This document shows, piece by piece, positions 38,899 to 48,931 of a DNA stretch of 64,000 bases. Numbering within the stretch: position 1 is the first letter of the stretch; the number at the start of each line of letters is the position of its first letter. A program made the position numbers and the translations under genes. The stretch is taken from the NCBI RefSeq assembly GCF_008801575.1, contig NZ_VZPL01000022.1:1-64000 (forward strand). The letters run 5' to 3'. This DNA is from Xanthomonas cissicola (GTDB lineage: Bacteria; Pseudomonadota; Gammaproteobacteria; Xanthomonadales; Xanthomonadaceae). Under the pieces are notes generated by a model. It was not told the DNA's origin and searched no databases. It was given only the letters and a program-made list of their open reading frames with translations.

Positions 38899-41424
<2,526 letters not shown>

Positions 41425-41457
41425 TTATACCAGTCGGCCCGTACCGGCCGTCGCGGC

Positions 41458-42564
41458 TCAGTTGACCGTTGCCTGTCGCGCAATCTGGCCGTGTTCCACG
41501 TGGAACTGCTGCAATAGTGCAGCTGCGTCTGCAAGGCCCGGTGGGGTCTCGGTTGCGGTGATGAGCACCTGCGCCGGCGCGGAAGCGAGCCGCTGCAGCA
41601 CGCGCCCCTGATGATGCCGGTCCAGCTCCGAGCCCAGATCGTCCAGCGCGATGACCGGCCATTCGCCGCGTTCGAAGGCGAAGTCCTCGGCCTGTGCGAG
41701 CAGACAGGCAAGGGCCGTGAGCTTGGCCTGTCCCCGGGAAAGCGCGTCCTTGCCCGGGAGTGCGTGGAAGCTGGGCATCCAATCTGCGCGGTGCGGGCCT
41801 TGCGAGGTATAGCCGTTCTGGCGATCGCGCTCACGCGCAAGCAGGAGGGCGTCTGCCAACGAGACCTCGTGGCGCTTCCAGCCTGGGGCGAACGTCAGCG
41901 CAGACAGTCCCAGCGCCGGCGCGATGGCATCTGCCACTGAAACCAGCCGGTCCTGCAGGCGTTCCAGGTAGCGCATGCGCCGGGACGTCAGGGTTTCGCC
42001 GGATTCGGCGAGTTCGTTGTCCCATGCGTCCAGCATGCGTGGCTGCGCGCCCTGTTTCAGCAACGCATTGCGTTGTTTGAGGGCTCGCGCGTAGCGGCGC
42101 CACAGGGTTAGAAAAGCGGGTTCCACGTGGAACAGGCCCCAATCCAGAAAACGGCGGCGGGGTTCACCACCGCCACTGATCAATACGTGGCTGCCGGGCT
42201 CGAACGTCACCACTGCCAGCGCAGCGCAAAGAGAGCCAAGCTGCGCCACGTCTTCCCCGTCCAGGCGCCCTGTCCATTCCTGTCCGCTATGACGCAGGCC
42301 AGCCCGACGCGTCCGCTCGACCGCAGCGCCGCCGCCTTCTTTCCACTCCACGAAGACTTCGAGGTCGTTGGCACCTTGTTGGATCAGGCCGTCGCGGACG
42401 CGCCCGCGGAAGCTGCGGCCGTAAGCCATCAGGTGTAGCGCTTCGAGCACGCTGGTCTTGCCCGCGCCGTTGTCGCCGGTCAGCAGATTCAAGGCACTGG
42501 AGAGATGAAGCTCGACGGTTTGAAACCGGCGAAGCCGATGAATGGACAACCGCACTACATGCAT
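41458..42564 (-). CDS. recF: DNA replication and repair protein RecF
   Basis: A 368-residue SMC-like ABC ATPase that helps load RecA at gaps. Walker A is LLTGDNGAGKTSVLEALH (about 30-47), the signature motif LSRGQAKLTALA and Walker B VIALDDLGSELD. The start MHVVRLSIHRLRRFQ at 42564 follows the family. Unusually, two parS-like palindromes are coded inside the gene, both as Phe-His-Val-Glu (in GLFHVEPAF and QQFHVEHGQ). The gene is separated from dnaN by more than 1 kb and probably has its own promoter. Confidence 0.98.
   Translation of the reverse strand: MHVVRLSIHRLRRFQTVELHLSSALNLLTGDNGAGKTSVLEALHLMAYGRSFRGRVRDGLIQQGANDLEVFVEWKEGGGAAVERTRRAGLRHSGQEWTGRLDGEDVAQLGSLCAALAVVTFEPGSHVLISGGGEPRRRFLDWGLFHVEPAFLTLWRRYARALKQRNALLKQGAQPRMLDAWDNELAESGETLTSRRMRYLERLQDRLVSVADAIAPALGLSALTFAPGWKRHEVSLADALLLARERDRQNGYTSQGPHRADWMPSFHALPGKDALSRGQAKLTALACLLAQAEDFAFERGEWPVIALDDLGSELDRHHQGRVLQRLASAPAQVLITATETPPGLADAAALLQQFHVEHGQIARQATVN
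41492..41507. promoter_or_regulatory. parS: parS-like site 1 (inside recF, 3' end)
   Basis: TGTTCCACGTGGAACT: a 14-base perfect palindrome, GTTCCACGTGGAAC, identical in its core to Pseudomonas-type parS sites bound by ParB. It lies in codons for FHVE near the RecF C-terminus. Confidence 0.85.
42119..42134. promoter_or_regulatory. parS: parS-like site 2 (inside recF)
   Basis: GGTTCCACGTGGAACA: the same 14-base palindrome GTTCCACGTGGAAC, in recF codons for FHVE of GLFHVEPAF. ParB binds such sites and the ParABS system then moves the origin region to the cell pole. Confidence 0.85.
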
Positions 42565-42663
42565 CGATCGGTGTGCTCTGGGCTGTAATCCGGCATGCCG
42601 GTCGGTTCGAAGGATACGGGATCGGCATGAAACCGTGCAGACATGGCCGCCAGGAATGACCGG

Positions 42664-42886
42664 ACAGGCAGGGGATAACATGTGGATAAAAACAGGGCCT
42701 GTGCAGGTGTTTTCGCTTATCCACAGCTTGTGCGTGAGAAAACAGGGCGGTAAACACAGGGTTTCGTCCCATAAATTTCCTTTACAAACAATCACTTAAC
42801 ATGTTTTTGCGCAAAATCTGGCCCTACCATCACCACAAAGCTCTTAAGTTATTTATAGATTTAAAAGCCAATTGCGATGTGTATAA
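42664..42886 (-). other. Origin-like module in the dnaN-recF gap (inverted copy)
   Basis: Perfect DnaA boxes lie at 42681-42689 (TGTGGATAA) and 42717-42725 (TTATCCACA), a one-mismatch box at 42878-42886 (TGTGTATAA) and AT-rich stretches at 42766-42815 and 42836-42870. A 22-base core at 42820-42841 matches the reverse complement of 44764-44785 at 21 positions. The two perfect boxes lie 95 and 131 bases from the core, as in the other module. This looks like an origin element; function is inferred. Confidence 0.75.
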
Positions 42887-43565
42887 CTCAAAAACACCAG
42901 GGAACCGAACACGTGGACCGTGGCTAGCCGACATGCAAGACAGCAACCCGGTTGACCGAGTTTGAATCCTGAACCAATTCAGTTTCAACCTGGGTAACGC
43001 TTTACGAACTCAACTTGCTAGTTGGAGTCGATGTATTTCTCCGCTCGCTTTTGCTGCGTCTGGAACCAAGCAAGATCTAGGATCAAAGACCGGGCGAATG
43101 AACCCGATCGGCTCCGGCCAGGTCGAGACTGCCGGGGGTGACTGATTCGCAAGTTGCCAACCCCGTCCGAGCTTTTGCAACACTGCAGACGCGTGACGCA
43201 GCGATGCGCGCCTGTGGCACAAGTTCCACGATGGCCCCACGCACGCGGGAGCCGCGGTGAATCATGTCCTGACGTTGGCTAGCATGAAGCTCGGTCGCCG
43301 GCCGTCACCGGAGAACTTTGGCACTCGACGTGGACCGGTCTCGCCGCTGATGCCGGTGTCTAGCGAACACACAAAACCCGAGTGGCAAGGGGCCGGGGCG
43401 CGTTTGGTCGATCAAACGGACGCACAGCCGCGATGACTGCGCCAAGGGCTTTATCGCTGCAAGTCGTGCGCGATTGCAGTCGCTCAGCCTATCGGCGTGT
43501 GTGGTCTCCACAGGCGACCTGGCCGCGACAGCTCCCTGCACATAGCAAGCTACGAAACAGCGCAA
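42887..43565. other. Long non-coding stretch between dnaN and recF
   Basis: About 680 bases with no credible gene on either strand: short frames only, no ribosome-binding sites, no family resemblance. The first part is less GC-rich (for example TTTGAATCCTGAACC near 42962). Nothing else was recognised. Its position between an origin-like module and a parS site suggests an architectural rather than coding role. Confidence 0.55.
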
Positions 43566-43592
43566 ACAAAAAGCCCGGCATCCGCCGGGCTT
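43566..43592 (-). terminator. Intrinsic terminator after dnaN
   Basis: Read leftward, AAGCCCGGC, a GGAT loop and GCCGGGCTT are followed by TTTTGTTTG. It lies about 25 bases after the dnaN stop, just beyond the parS-like site. It should separate dnaN from recF transcription. Confidence 0.88.
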
Positions 43593-43595
43593 CCG

Positions 43596-43611
43596 TGTTC
43601 CACGTGGAACG
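43596..43611. promoter_or_regulatory. parS: parS-like site 3 (between dnaN and its terminator)
   Basis: TGTTCCACGTGGAACG: the palindrome GTTCCACGTGGAAC again, six bases beyond the dnaN stop codon. It is the only one of the three outside a coding sequence. Confidence 0.87.
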
Positions 43612-43616
43612 AGATA

Positions 43617-44717
43617 TCAGAGACGCAACGGCATCACCACATGACGCGACTTCTCGCTGCTGGCCTCACGCACCAATGCAGACGAATTGGCATCACGCAG
43701 CTGGATCACCACGTGCTCATCGCGCAATGCCGACAGCGCGTCGAGCAAATAGTTGACGTTGAAGCCAATGGCCAGATCGTCGACCTTGGTATCGGCCTCG
43801 ATCTCTTCCTGCGCCTCTTCCTGCTCGGGGTTATGCGCGCTGATCTTCAGCTGACCCGGCGACACTTCCACACGGACACCGCGGTACTTCTCGTTGGACA
43901 GGATGGCCGCACGCTGTAGCGACGCGCGCAGCGCTTCACGATCCACCTTGACCTCGCGATCGGCGCCGATCGGAATCACTGCCTCGTAGTCCGGGAACCG
44001 CCCGTCGATCAGCTTCGAGGTAAAGGTCACATCACCGCGCTTGACGCGGATATGGCTGCGGCCCACTTCCAGCTCGACCTCGCGATCGGCACCTTCCAGC
44101 AAGCGCTGCAGCTCGGTCACGCCCTTGCGCGGCACGATGATCTGGCGCTTGGCGCCACCGGCTTTCTCCAGCTCCATCTCACATAGCGCCAGGCGATGAC
44201 CGTCGGTGGCCACGCAGCGCAGCAAGCCGTCGCGCAGGTCGAACAACAGGCCATTGAGGTAATAGCGCACGTCCTGCTGGGCCATGGCGAACGCGGTGCG
44301 CTCGATCAGCTCCTTGAGACCGGCTTCGGGCACCACGACGCGTTCGGTCGCTTCGACTTCGTCCACAGACGGAAAATCGTTGGAAGGCAACGTCGCCAGG
44401 GTGAAGCGGCTCCGCCCGGCTTGCACAGTGACCTTGTCGCCGGTCTGCGAAATGGTGACGCGGCTGCCGTCGGGCAGGGCTCGCAGGATGTCGAACAGCT
44501 TACGCGCCGGAATCGTGGTTTCGCCGTCCTGCGCGTCCTCCACCAGCGTGCGCGAGATCATTTCCACTTCCAGGTCGGTGCCGGTCAACGAGACCTGTCC
44601 ATCCTTGACCTGTACCAGCAAGTTGGCCAGGACGGGCAGGGTTTGACGGCGTTCGACCACATTGACCACTTGTGCCAATGGTTTGAGGAAGGCTTCGCGC
44701 TGCAGTGTAAAACGCAT
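43617..44717 (-). CDS. dnaN: DNA polymerase III beta subunit (sliding clamp)
   Basis: A 366-residue protein of normal length, made of three clamp domains. It starts MRFTLQREAFLKPLAQVVNVVERRQTLPVLANLLV and ends RHVVMPLRL, as the family does. It encircles DNA and tethers polymerase III and other partners. The gene lies between dnaA (276 bases away) and recF (1.05 kb away), all leftward, and is bordered on both sides by inverted origin-like modules. Confidence 0.99.
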   Translation of the reverse strand: MRFTLQREAFLKPLAQVVNVVERRQTLPVLANLLVQVKDGQVSLTGTDLEVEMISRTLVEDAQDGETTIPARKLFDILRALPDGSRVTISQTGDKVTVQAGRSRFTLATLPSNDFPSVDEVEATERVVVPEAGLKELIERTAFAMAQQDVRYYLNGLLFDLRDGLLRCVATDGHRLALCEMELEKAGGAKRQIIVPRKGVTELQRLLEGADREVELEVGRSHIRVKRGDVTFTSKLIDGRFPDYEAVIPIGADREVKVDREALRASLQRAAILSNEKYRGVRVEVSPGQLKISAHNPEQEEAQEEIEADTKVDDLAIGFNVNYLLDALSALRDEHVVIQLRDANSSALVREASSEKSRHVVMPLRL

Positions 44718-44729
44718 GTGGTTCCGTGC

Positions 44730-44930
44730 CCCTATGCTTTAAAAGATATGGAATAAATCAAAAGCTTGGTGGTGATGGTAGGGCCGTTTTCAGCGGATAA
44801 CCACCATAACTGTTTGTTTCCAAAGACATTTCAGCACCTGAAACGCGTTGGACTAGTGCGCCTGAGCTGGTCGGAAAACCTGTGGATAGTTTTCGAGCCC
44901 GACTGCGGCGCAACGTTATCCACAGATTCT
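44730..44930 (+). other. oriC: Origin-like module in the dnaA-dnaN gap
   Basis: AT-rich stretch at 44738-44764, the 22-base core at 44764-44785, a near-consensus DnaA box TGTGGATAG at 44881-44889 and a perfect one, TTATCCACA, at 44916-44924, plus a weak box at 44792-44800. The dnaA-dnaN gap has been reported to support autonomous replication in X. campestris. The same layout, inverted, is found at 42664-42886. Confidence 0.8.
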
Positions 44931-44993
44931 CCCGCATTTGACCCCAACGTTTCCACGCTTTTTTCCAGCCTGGCGCCGATGGCAGCCGATGGC

Positions 44994-46322
44994 TTACTCG
45001 CTGAGCTTGCGAATCAGCTTTTCCCAGTCCTCGCGGAGCTTGCCGTCGGCCTCCATCAACGTGCGGATCTGACGGCACGCATGCAGCACGGTGGTGTGGT
45101 CGCGGCCAGCGAAGGCATCGCCGATCTCCGGCAGGCTGTGCTCGGTGAGTTCCTTGGCCAGCGCCATCGCCACCTGGCGCGGGCGCGCCAGCGAGCGGGT
45201 GCGCCGCTTGGACAGCAGATCCTTCATTTGCAAGCCGTAGTAATCGGCCACAGTCTTCTGGATATTGGGAATGCCGATCGCCTGTTGCTGGGCGCGCAGC
45301 AGGTCGCGCAGCGTCTCCTGGGCAAATTCCACCGTGATCGAGCGCCCGGTGAAGTTGGCACGCGCCACCAGCGTGTTGAGCGCGCCTTCAAGGTCGCGCA
45401 CGTTGGAGCGCATCTTCTTGGCGATCAGGAATGCCACGTCGTCGGGAATTTCGGCGCCGCGCTCGCGCGCCTTGGCCAGCACGATGGCCGCGCGGGTCTC
45501 GAAGTCCGGCGGGTCGATCGCCACCGACAGGCCCCAGGCCAGGCGCGACTTCAGCCGCGGCTCCAGGCCTTCGACCTCGCGCGGGTAGCGGTCGCAGGTC
45601 AGGATGATCTGCTGGCGGCCATCGAACAGCGCGTTGAAGGTGTGGAAGAACTCTTCCTGGGTGCGGTCCTTGCCGGCGAAGAACTGGATGTCGTCGATCA
45701 GCAGCGCATCGATCTGCTGGAACTGGCGCTTGAACTGGTCCATCGCCTTGTCCTGCAGCGCCCGGATCATCGCGCTGAAGAACTGCTCCGAACGCAGATA
45801 CATCACCTTGGCGGCCGGATTGGCCTGACGCAGCGCATTGCCGGCCGCGAACATCAGGTGGGTCTTGCCCAGACCGGTGCTGCCGTACAGCAGCAACGGG
45901 TTGTGTGCACGGTCGCCGGGCTTCTGTGCAGCCTGGATCGCGGCCGCCAGGCCCAACTGGTTGCTGCGGCCTTCCACGAAGTTGGCGAAGGTGTAATGCG
46001 AATCCAGGTTGCCGGCGAACGGCACGATCGGTGCAGCCTGCGGCGCGCTCGGCACGGCCACGGGTGCAGGGGCCGGCTCGGGCGCGCGTGGACGCGAACC
46101 GACCGCCAGCGCGACGTCGCCATTGCCGGCGAAATACGCCAGCAATTCGCGAATGCGCGGCAGGTAACGTTCGCGCACCTGGTCGACGATGAAGGCGTTC
46201 GGGGCGTACAGCACGATGCTGTCGCCGCGATCTTCGGCTTGCAGGGGTTTCAACCAGGTGTGGACATCTTCGGGCGGGAATTCGGCTTCGAGACGTTCCA
46301 GACAGCGGGGCCAAGCATCCAT
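44994..46322 (-). CDS. dnaA: Chromosomal replication initiator DnaA
   Basis: This 442-residue AAA+ ATPase binds DnaA boxes and opens oriC. Domain I is at about 1-80 ([25 protein letters not shown]) and a Pro/Ala-rich domain II at about 80-105. Domain III has Walker A in [13 protein letters not shown] and Walker B in [13 protein letters not shown]. Domain IV carries the DNA-binding signature in [18 protein letters not shown] at 46322 is chosen; a TTG directly before it is the alternative. It is divergent from rpmH. Confidence 0.99.
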
Positions 46323-46435
46323 CAAAGTATGATCATCTGTTGCTGGCTGCGGCGCGCAGAAAAGCGCCGTGCTCGCAGCCCGGTAGTGAAAAGAGGATGG
46401 ACCAGCCTAGCACCGAGGGCAGGGTTTTCCCAGAG

Positions 46436-46444
46436 TTATTCACA
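46436..46444 (+). promoter_or_regulatory. DnaA box in the dnaA-rpmH gap
   Basis: TTATTCACA matches the TTATNCACA consensus. It lies about 115 bases upstream of dnaA and about 55 bases from the rpmH -35 box. It may serve in autoregulation of dnaA or as part of the origin. Confidence 0.7.
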
Positions 46445-46496
46445 GGGCAATCCACAGGCCAATGGTGTCCTTATCGGCGGTAAAGCGAGCAGGGTG

Positions 46497-46524
46497 TTGA
46501 CCGCCGCCGCGCAAGGCCTATAGA
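46497..46524 (+). promoter_or_regulatory. Sigma-70 promoter of rpmH
   Basis: TTGACC (46497-46502), a 16-base spacer and TATAGA (46519-46524) form a strong promoter. It would start the rpmH transcript near 46531, about 34 bases before the ATG. Confidence 0.8.
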
Positions 46525-46564
46525 ATTGCCGGTTCTATTCGTCTCCATTCATGCAGAGGGCCCC

Positions 46565-46705
46565 ATGGCCACCAAGCGTACTTTCCAACCCAGCAATCTC
46601 AAGCGAGCACGCGACCATGGTTTCCGCGCACGTATGGCAACCGCCGACGGCCGCAAGATCCTGGCTCGCCGCCGCGCCAAGGGCCGCAAGCGCCTGAGCG
46701 CTTGA
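46565..46705 (+). CDS. rpmH: 50S ribosomal protein L34
   Basis: A 46-residue, very basic protein: [20 protein letters not shown] at the start and [15 protein letters not shown] at the end, the full L34 signature. It is too short for most gene finders' length filters. It begins the rpmH-rnpA-yidC series away from the origin, and rnpA follows by 38 bases. Confidence 0.99.
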
Positions 46706-46743
46706 TTGCCGCGCCGCTCCCTGCGGCCGAGGCAGTCCCTACC

Positions 46744-47181
46744 GTGAACGCATCGAACCCGTGCAGGCGATTTCCTCGCTCTGCGCGGGTTCGTACGCGT
46801 GCGCAATATACGATCGTATTCGATACTGCACGTCGCACCTCGGACCCACTCCTGAGCCTGCACTGGCGCACCGGCGACACGCCGCCGCGCCTGGGCATGG
46901 CGGTGTCGCGCAAGGTCGACACGAGGGCGGTCGGGCGCAACCGCATCAAGCGCGTGTTGCGTGACGCCATGCGGCATCTACTCCCTGAGCTGGCCGGTGG
47001 CGATTACGTCATCGTGGCGCGCTCGGCAGCTGCAAAAGCGACCAATCCACAGATTCGCGACGCTTTCCTGCGTCTGCTGCGCCGTGCTGGCGCATTGCCC
47101 CTGCCTGCTGCGGCCGGCACAATGCCGCCCGCCAGGACGGTGCACCCATCCTCCCTTTCCCCGACAGAGCCGGAACTGTAG
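46744..47181 (+). CDS. rnpA: Ribonuclease P protein component
   Basis: A 145-residue basic protein that binds RNase P RNA to mature tRNA 5' ends. The RnpA signature [16 protein letters not shown] lies near residue 60, preceded by [13 protein letters not shown] at 46744 is chosen as start because the family begins at [17 protein letters not shown]. The C-terminal 25 residues are Pro/Ser-rich. yidC follows after 25 bases; no yidD gene lies between, unlike in many bacteria. Confidence 0.96.
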
Positions 47182-47206
47182 TTCCGACTGAGCGAGTTGC
47201 TGCCCG

Positions 47207-48931
47207 ATGAACCAGACCCGTGTTTTCCTGATTTTTGCCTGGCTGATGGTCGCGGCGCTGCTGTGGATGGAGTGGGGCAAGGACAAGGCCGCTGCCAATG
47301 CGCCTGTGGTCGCTGCAACGCAGTCGGTTCCGGCGGCCCGTGATCTGGATGCGGCCACGCCGAGTGCGGCCAATGTGCCCGCTGCTCAGGCCATTCCGCA
47401 GGCCGGCGCGCCAGGTGCAGTGCCGGCGACCAGCACCACCGCCGCGACACCGGCTGCTGCCGGCGCCGCACCAGTGGTGACCCTGACCTCGGACGTGCTG
47501 CGCCTGAAGCTGGATGGCCGCAGCGTGCTCGATGCCGAGCTGCTGCAATTCCCGCAGACCAAGGACGGCACCGCGCCGGTCAGTCTGCTGACCGAAGATC
47601 CGGCGCACCCGTATAACGCCACCAGCGGCTGGGCCAGCGAGCATTCGCCGGTGCCGGGCGTGGGCGGCTTCCGCGCCGAGCAGCCGGGCACGACGTTCGA
47701 CATGGCCAAGGGCCAGAACACGCTGGTGGTGCCATTCGTCTGGAATGGCCCCGACGGCGTCTCGATCCGTCGCACCTTTACCCTGGAGCGCGGCCGCTAT
47801 GCCATCTCGATCAAGGACGAGGTGATCAACAAGAGTGGCGCGCCGTGGAACGGCTACGTCTTCCGCAAGCTGAGCCGGGTGCCGACCATCCTCAGCCGTG
47901 GCATGACCAATCCGGATTCCTTCAGCTTCAATGGCGCGACCTGGTACAGCCCGCAGGAAGGCTATGAGCGCCGTGCGTTCAAGGACTACATGGACGACGG
48001 TGGCCTGAATCGCCAGATCACCGGCGGCTGGGTGGCGCTGCTGCAGCACCACTTCTTCACCGCGTGGATTCCGCAGAAGGACCAGGCCTCGCTGTATGTG
48101 CTGGCTCAGGACGGCCCGCGCGACGTGGCCGAGCTGCGTGGCCCGGCCTTCACCGTGGCGCCTGGCCAGACCGCCAGCACCGAAGCGCGCCTGTGGGTGG
48201 GCCCGAAGCTGGTCAGCCTGATCGCCAAGGAAGACGTCAAGGGTCTGGACCGCGTTGTCGATTACAGCCGCTTCTCGATCATGGCCATCATCGGCCAGGG
48301 TCTGTTCTGGGTGTTGAGCCACCTGCACAGCTTCCTGCACAACTGGGGCTGGGCCATCATCGGCCTGGTGGTGCTGCTGCGTCTGGCGCTGTATCCGCTG
48401 TCGGCCGCGCAGTACAAGTCCGGCGCCAAGATGCGACGCTTCCAGCCGCGCCTGGCGCAGCTCAAGGAGCGCTACGGCGACGATCGCGTCAAGTACCAGC
48501 AGGCGACGATGGAGCTGTTCAAGAAGGAAAAGATCAACCCGATGGGCGGCTGCCTGCCGCTACTGATCCAGATGCCGATCTTCTTCGCGCTGTACTGGGT
48601 GCTGGTGGAGTCGGTGGAACTGCGCCAGGCGCCGTGGCTGGGCTGGATCCAGGATCTGACTGCGCGCGACCCGTACTTCATCCTGCCGTTGCTCAATATC
48701 TCGATCATGTGGGCGACGCAGAAGCTGACCCCGACCCCGGGCATGGACCCGATGCAGGCCAAGATGATGCAGTTCATGCCGCTGGTGTTCGGCGTCATGA
48801 TGGCCTTTATGCCGGCCGGCCTGGTGCTGTACTGGGTGGTCAATGGCGGCCTGGGCCTGTTGATCCAATGGTGGATGATCCGCCAGCACGGCGAGAAGCC
48901 GAGCAAGATCATCCAGGCCAACGCCAAGTAA
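47207..48931 (+). CDS. yidC: Membrane protein insertase YidC
   Basis: A 574-residue protein inserting inner-membrane proteins with or without Sec. N-terminal helix ([18 protein letters not shown]), an Ala-rich linker, the large periplasmic beta-supersandwich (about 85-340) and the conserved five-helix core (about 350-560) with [22 protein letters not shown], the Arg-bearing hydrophilic groove, and the Cys-less [18 protein letters not shown] segment. It is third in the rpmH operon and closed by a terminator. Confidence 0.98.

Follow-up and report, generated by a model that had tools for sequence, protein, structure and literature searches.

How many DnaA-assembly regions does the replication origin of Xanthomonas contain? 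In 2002, Yen et al. reportedly assigned the Xanthomonas oriC, in X. campestris, to the dnaA-dnaN gap. In the stretch analyzed here (the first 64,000 nucleotides of X. cissicola contig NZ_VZPL01000022.1, hereafter the window), that gap spans 276 bp, and the gap on the other side of dnaN, which separates it from recF, spans 1052 bp. The dnaN-recF gap contains an inverted copy of approximately 200 bp of the dnaA-dnaN gap, comprising two DnaA boxes, a triplet-periodic core, and an AT-rich stretch. We term this copy the second module and its counterpart in the dnaA-dnaN gap the oriC module. Judging from sequence, we propose with moderate confidence that the two constitute a bipartite origin, in which inverted paralogous modules for DnaA assembly and unwinding would surround dnaN as a spacer.

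The extent of the duplication was delineated first by its core. An earlier note on this DNA had described two inverted 22-base cores with 21 matches, and the count held: the second-module core (42820-42841, plus strand; GGCC, then CTA CCA TCA CCA CAA AGC) agrees with the reverse complement of 44764-44785, the oriC-module core on the minus strand, at 21 of 22 bases. A similarity confined to the core would speak against a duplication, as the note had recognized. The match extends beyond it, to an ungapped inverted pair of 74 nt found by a repeat finder (42780-42853 with 44752-44825; 74% complementary) and to 197 bp with a profile of dnaA-dnaN gaps (nhmmer; 42660-42856, plus strand, inverted relative to the oriC module; E 2.7e-26). 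Common to both modules is the core consensus CTA CCA TCA CCA CC followed by an AT-rich tract. Allowing up to three mismatches, a genome-wide search for the 22-base core returned two exact matches (the two modules) and one other at three mismatches. A chance match of the 22-mer was ruled out by this count, by the profile E-values, and by the conservation described below. A dispersed repeat or mobile element was also ruled out, as only two copies occur in the genome at up to two mismatches.

The DnaA boxes repeat the same layout. Offsets are given relative to the first core base, and boxes were accepted with at most one mismatch. In module orientation, each copy has one minus box near -143 and one plus box at -108/-107. 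Both boxes of the second module read TTATCCACA (-143, 42681-42689, minus strand; -107, 42717-42725, plus strand). The oriC module has TTATCCACA at -143 (44916-44924, plus strand) and CTATCCACA, with one mismatch, at -108 (44881-44889, minus strand). The boxes lie where the earlier note had placed them, and its spacings from the cores (95/96 and 131/131) hold. A weak box, TTATCCGCT, sits at -19 in the oriC module, 10 bp from the core (44792-44800, minus strand). Beyond the AT-rich stretch of the second module is a third box, TTATACACA (42878-42886, minus strand); a box at this place, 320-323 bp before recF, was present in 23 of the 23 Xanthomonas loci listed.

In each module, the AT-rich stretch adjoins the core on the side toward dnaN. 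Duplex weakness was computed as nearest-neighbor energy over 30-bp stretches. The AT-rich stretch at the second core (42837-42866, plus strand) is the weakest 30-bp duplex of the window (z 4.86), making it a candidate DNA unwinding element (DUE). The stretch at the oriC core (44733-44762, minus strand) is the second weakest (z 4.45). Arms resembling GCTTT...AAAGC flank the AT-rich tract of both modules (44736-44765 and 42840-42868) and may form a putative hairpin when single-stranded. No structured RNA within 41300-47300 matched Rfam at the gathering threshold. About 66 bp before the second core is the motif AGGGTTTC (42758-42765), which many second modules and the first modules of Stenotrophomonas share; it is possible that it serves as a site for another origin protein.

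To place the second module within the family, we collected 180 loci beyond the window (60 from genomes of the family, plus 80 named ones, the best of 568 confirmed, plus 40). Of the 54 genus codes that the core search returned, the sets of 60 and 40 span 49. Some genomes occur twice, such that the collection holds 162 distinct dnaN regions, 47 of them among its 53 module-positive loci. The profile of dnaA-dnaN gaps was run against every dnaN-recF gap no shorter than about 60 bp (135 + 30 = 165). Sixteen loci fell outside this search, 15 with a gap shorter than 60 bp and one (L132) without recF on its stretch. We then added 13 more genomes of genus code g7, which is very likely the X. albilineans genus, the fragmented genome G175, and 20 Stenotrophomonas loci picked regardless of core: G221 and G233, which lacked a core pair in the plain core search, and 18 spread across 60 with a DnaN match.

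Of the first 165 gaps, 53 gave inverted matches 171-284 nt long (E 6e-18 to 3e-43); among all 199 loci searched, 74 had the module. These included all 24 Xanthomonas sensu stricto loci (with all 18 same-genus genomes of the core search) and all 44 Stenotrophomonas loci (with all 16 of its genus code in the core search). All 20 added Stenotrophomonas loci carried it (E 1.7e-15 to 3.8e-43), as did four of four loci of the sister genus g44 and one locus each of g43 (L046) and g53 (L050). Both modules are present in the S. rhizophila loci L077 and L078. In G175 the module lies upstream of recF (E 2.5e-25), and one of the core-search matches of this genome is probably due to chance. The plain core search gave both-strand matches in 17 of 18 same-genus genomes; in the exception, G092 (L023), both modules are present with more mismatches. 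An exact core match also occurs at G030:C422:4120-4140 (genus code g30), a genome in which no DnaN was found.

The profile detected no module in any of the 18 loci of the X. albilineans genus (L042-L045, L084, and L188-L200; none of the 13 added loci), and no DnaA box with at most one mismatch was found in their dnaN-recF gaps. It likewise found none in the 107 other loci searched, which included Pseudoxanthomonas, Lysobacter, Luteimonas, and outgroups; L026 is without a second module. No Xylella locus was recognized, by base composition, among those collected. The earlier note had made conservation of the second module a test of its proposal: the module is kept throughout Xanthomonas and Stenotrophomonas, and it is not a family-wide feature. 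Triplet tracts related to the oriC core do occur at the same place in many other genera of the family. Among dnaN-recF gaps longer than 150 bp, a box with at most one mismatch was found in 53 of 53 with the module (one to five boxes) versus 2 of 27 without it.

Box positions were conserved. Among unique oriC copies, both boxes were in place in all 21 from Xanthomonas and in 20 of 21 from Stenotrophomonas. Among the 21 unique Xanthomonas second copies, all have the -107 box and 14 have both boxes (the -143 box being the limiting one, at 14/21). Fourteen Stenotrophomonas loci of the first set had been picked for showing both cores, so that figures from that set are favorably selected. We therefore compiled a less selected set of 28 second copies (10 named and 18 added; L209 and L219 were dropped as identical rows) that were not chosen by core. 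Of these, 27 have the -143 box, every one exact, and 25 have the -108 box; many Stenotrophomonas second modules hold extra boxes at about -167 and -190. Control windows shifted by 7 to 23 bp gave zero except in two cells: a shift of -11 found the minus box in 6 of 21 second copies from Xanthomonas, and a shift of +11 found the plus box in 2 of 21 from Stenotrophomonas. The earlier note had judged equal spacing unlikely by chance, and the recurrence of boxes at the same offsets in other species, set against these controls, agrees.

The weak box positions were less uniform. By mean mismatch, position -19 was lowest in three of five sets and ranked second in the remaining pair; position -42 ranked first or second in four sets and fourth in the set of mixed genera. 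At -19, most Xanthomonas oriC copies have two mismatches, and first-set Stenotrophomonas second copies have two to three. The mean rises from 2.0 in Xanthomonas oriC copies to 4.5 in Xanthomonas second copies; for the proximal weak box of the latter, a mean of 4.38 compares with 5.13 for shuffled sequence. By sequence, the -19 site is a plausible box in the Xanthomonas oriC and hardly one in Xanthomonas second copies.

Mean pairwise identity among the 21 unique Xanthomonas second copies peaks at the core (0.95 over positions 0-29, then 0.84 over 30-59). It falls to 0.61-0.72 in the box half (-150 to -1) and to 0.02-0.38 on the dnaN side (+90 to +449). The recF side is less diverged (0.49-0.86 from -270 to -151), partly because recF begins there. 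In Stenotrophomonas, the second core reaches 0.93 in the mostly core-selected set versus 0.87 in the less selected 28, for which identity is 0.55-0.66 from -150 to -1, 0.53 from 30 to 59, and 0.10-0.23 from +60 to +299. As gaps were counted as differences, these flank values partly reflect length changes. Beside the first copy, from +90 on, identity is 0.84-0.97 in both genera, reflecting dnaN coding sequence. The whole Xanthomonas dnaN-recF gap varies from 719 to 1749 bp, and the segment between the second module and dnaN (42900-43560) is saturated. In all 22 Xanthomonas and all 22 Stenotrophomonas loci compared, the latter partly core-selected, both AT-rich stretches fell among the weakest 1.1% of 30-bp windows. 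Since the core and boxes are conserved in a gap whose dnaN side is saturated elsewhere, neither chance nor decay is likely. The alignments argue that the core and boxes of the second copy are held by selection, whose stricter target is the core in Xanthomonas and the -143 box in Stenotrophomonas.

The phylogeny of the copies supports the duplication that the earlier note had suggested: about 200 bp align, and all second copies but one fall into a single clade. A tree of 178 unique module sequences placed 46 of the 47 second copies in one clade (100/99, bootstrap unsettled), with L050_NF outside it on a long branch. The same sequence again stood apart in a tree of 110 rows that included the added Stenotrophomonas loci (50 of 51 second copies in one clade, 100/98). 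A reduced tree of 59 rows without L046_NF and L050_NF united all 24 second copies (100/98). These topologies weigh against separate duplication of the modules in each genus, or their homogenization by gene conversion, an alternative that concerns history and not function; so does the identity of only 55-70% between the two copies in one genome. In its favor, L050_NF lies outside the clade, and the AU test did not reject the joining of both Xanthomonas copies (24.8 log units; p 0.070) and barely rejected that of both Stenotrophomonas copies (31.8 log units; p 0.047). Separate duplications are thus disfavored while still compatible with the data, and we consider this history improbable.

In a DnaN+RecF protein tree of 50 chosen loci, all 17 module-bearing rows lie within a clade of 22 (100/98), of which the remaining five rows are the X. 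albilineans genus (four) and L026. Together, the trees are pointing to a probable single old duplication behind the second copies. They would be explained by one gain with losses in both the X. albilineans genus and L026, or by an additional gain in L050.

The two gaps thus hold inverted paralogous modules with conserved boxes, core, and weak duplex. From these we infer a mechanism that involves DnaA binding, spreading along the core, opening, and contact between modules. DnaA would bind the boxes of both copies and, by way of the weak boxes, spread along one strand of the triplet core. The AT-rich stretch would then open, with each module facing dnaN. The two DnaA complexes would probably touch across a looped-out dnaN, as happens across dnaA in bipartite origins. 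Initiation would start mainly at the dnaA-dnaN module, while the dnaN-recF module would offer another place for assembly and opening and would raise, time, or back up initiation. A stronger version seems rather unlikely to us, namely that both modules are working DnaA-dependent origins, roughly 1.3-2.6 kb apart, which open toward each other across dnaN, predate the split of Xanthomonas and Stenotrophomonas, and are missing in the X. albilineans genus.

Several observations weigh against a bipartite origin. Seven of the 21 Xanthomonas second copies have no -143 box in place (six of 21 have one about 11 bp off), and the proximal weak box of the Xanthomonas second copies has three to six mismatches. 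The second cores of L211, L218, and L220, three of the 20 added Stenotrophomonas loci, differ at five to seven positions while the module match is kept. Together with the more constant -143 box, this drift favors DnaA binding over opening; the three loci offer a natural test of the role of the core. The strict DnaA-trio rule (at least three trios of 3'-NAN-5', with a middle A) is followed by the first core triplet only (CTA CCA TCA CCA CCA). Absence from the X. albilineans genus and L026 means that the module can be lost or was never gained there; such relatives, with one module in place of two, provide a natural comparison for physiology. The dnaA-dnaN gap alone reportedly replicates autonomously (Yen et al. 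in 2002), which would make the second copy dispensable on a plasmid. Finally, GC skew at fourfold sites does not show a fork start, with group means for dnaA, dnaN, and recF of -0.08 to 0.11. It is -0.13 to -0.18 for gyrB in every group, with one module or two, and so is uninformative on a fork switch, and local GC skew of the window is likewise no help in locating the start.

The nearly lost weak box of Xanthomonas second copies, drifted cores, absence from a sister genus, plasmid report, and skew leave titration or regulation of DnaA as a serious rival. Here, the second module would be a site derived from oriC by duplication that binds DnaA and delays or tunes initiation without opening. Models for such sites are datA, DARS, and the Bacillus DnaA-box clusters. 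At a datA-like site, several DnaA boxes away from the start site lower initiation; the second gap holds boxes that may do so. The module also adjoins oriC and would hence be doubled early after initiation. Titration accounts well for the retained box positions, with the -143 box exact in 27 of 28 Stenotrophomonas copies while the core drifted in three of 20 added loci, for the extra boxes near -167 and -190, and for the poor proximal weak box of Xanthomonas second copies. It accounts less well for the Xanthomonas core, which is more conserved (0.95) than the box half (0.61-0.72), and plain titration has no need of the core and weak duplex kept in most copies of both genera. We regard this explanation as a real possibility, though not the one we would choose.

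A role in transcription, with DnaA as a regulator of recF (or of antisense or dnaN transcripts), appears unlikely. DnaA can act as a transcription factor (PMC8203912, in excerpt), and in 23 of 23 loci from Xanthomonas the core sits upstream of recF by 257-260 bp. However, this distance varies from 247 to 691 bp among the Stenotrophomonas loci aligned, the module is inverted relative to recF while the first copy faces dnaN, and a promoter needs no copy of the whole oriC layout. That the module is a functionless, decaying relic is hardly credible: although it is absent in some relatives, a few Stenotrophomonas cores have drifted, and its outer parts diverge, it is retained in all 24 Xanthomonas and all 44 Stenotrophomonas loci, with conserved boxes and with core identities of 0.95 and 0.87 beside saturated gap sequence.

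The surrounding genes all lie on the minus strand of the window. They are dnaA (44994-46325; open reading frame, placed in relatives by tblastn), dnaN between the two modules (43617-44717; 366 aa, 100% identical to X. phaseoli DnaN), recF (41458-42564; open reading frame trimmed to the start MHVVRLS, 368 aa), and gyrB (38899-41343). The palindrome GTTCCACGTGGAAC, which we take to be parS-like, occurs in three exact copies, one just after dnaN (43597-43610) and two inside recF (42120-42133 and 41493-41506). Of the 80 dnaN-recF gaps listed, 75 have it, with at most one mismatch, no more than 25 bp past the dnaN stop. Upstream of dnaA is the DnaA-box-like sequence TTATTCACA (46436-46444), possibly an autoregulatory site.

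In comparison with known systems, the oriC module corresponds to the minimal oriC of X. campestris, that is, the dnaA-dnaN gap with its DnaA boxes. To our knowledge, the study of Yen et al. (2002) does not describe an inverted copy in the dnaN-recF gap. Elsewhere, three DnaA boxes of oriC are placed between dnaA and dnaN (PMC8453159, in excerpt). In gammaBOriS, GTGGTGGTGGTRRTGGT, which is the triplet motif, is given as relevant for the oriC of Xanthomonadales and is annotated as a DnaA box (PMC7174414, in excerpt). We doubt this label, as GTGGTGGTGGTRRTGGT is unlike TTATCCACA and the alignment has its true boxes at other places.

The core itself invites comparison with the basal unwinding system (BUS), in which the spacer between box and trio peaks at 10-13 bp and the box-proximal trio is mostly 3'-GAT-5' (PMC8287927, in excerpt). 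The modules resemble the BUS in a triplet tract starting with CTA (3'-GAT-5' on the other strand) and AT-rich DNA beyond. The BUS has a DnaA box within about 16 bp of the trios; the candidate here is the weak box about 10 bp from the core, plausible in Xanthomonas oriC copies and hardly a box in Xanthomonas second copies. Unlike the BUS, the middle base of the trio strand is G and not A after the first triplet, and the adjoining box is weak. In B. subtilis, G at the middle position lowers activity (PMC10721633, in excerpt). Because the rest of the tract also departs from the middle-adenine rule, we do not claim membership in the BUS. Trios on the other strand (five NAN triplets) were set aside, as no box was seen by eye on the dnaN-facing side of the core. 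A non-canonical triplet-periodic core in many genera provides a test of how far the DnaA-trio rule reaches into the gammaproteobacteria.

Two origin-like regions on one bacterial chromosome have precedent as an idea. DoriC tables putative double origins in Acidaminococcus, Dehalobacter, Ralstonia, and Ochrobactrum, and in the excerpted text none of these examples is described as inverted paralogues around dnaN (PMC4403523). According to the same 2015 opinion paper, as excerpted, evidence is lacking that any single bacterial chromosome uses two functional origins. Our literature search, which reached few subscription journals and drew on listings and excerpts, found no description of an inverted origin module around dnaN. 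The second module is short, well bounded, and noncoding, and is therefore amenable to deletion, footprinting, and swapping in a harmless relative.

The closest parallels are the split origins, which carry DnaA boxes in both sub-regions and a DUE in one, usually with dnaA as the spacer (PMC4285127, in excerpt). In Helicobacter pylori and Bacillus subtilis, DnaA bridges the sub-regions and dnaA is looped out (PMC8235120, in excerpt). The reason for such splitting was called unknown in a 2015 review, in the portion excerpted (PMC4285127). Like the bipartite oriC of B. subtilis (incAB/incC) and H. pylori (oriC1/oriC2), as portrayed in these excerpts, the arrangement in Xanthomonas and Stenotrophomonas has two box-bearing sub-regions with one replication gene between them. 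Unlike those origins, its spacer is dnaN and not dnaA, its sub-regions are inverted paralogues, and a core with a weak AT-rich stretch, a candidate for opening, is found in both and not in one. With both halves so equipped, we would class the putative origin as a variant of the bipartite oriC and not as a plain member of that group.

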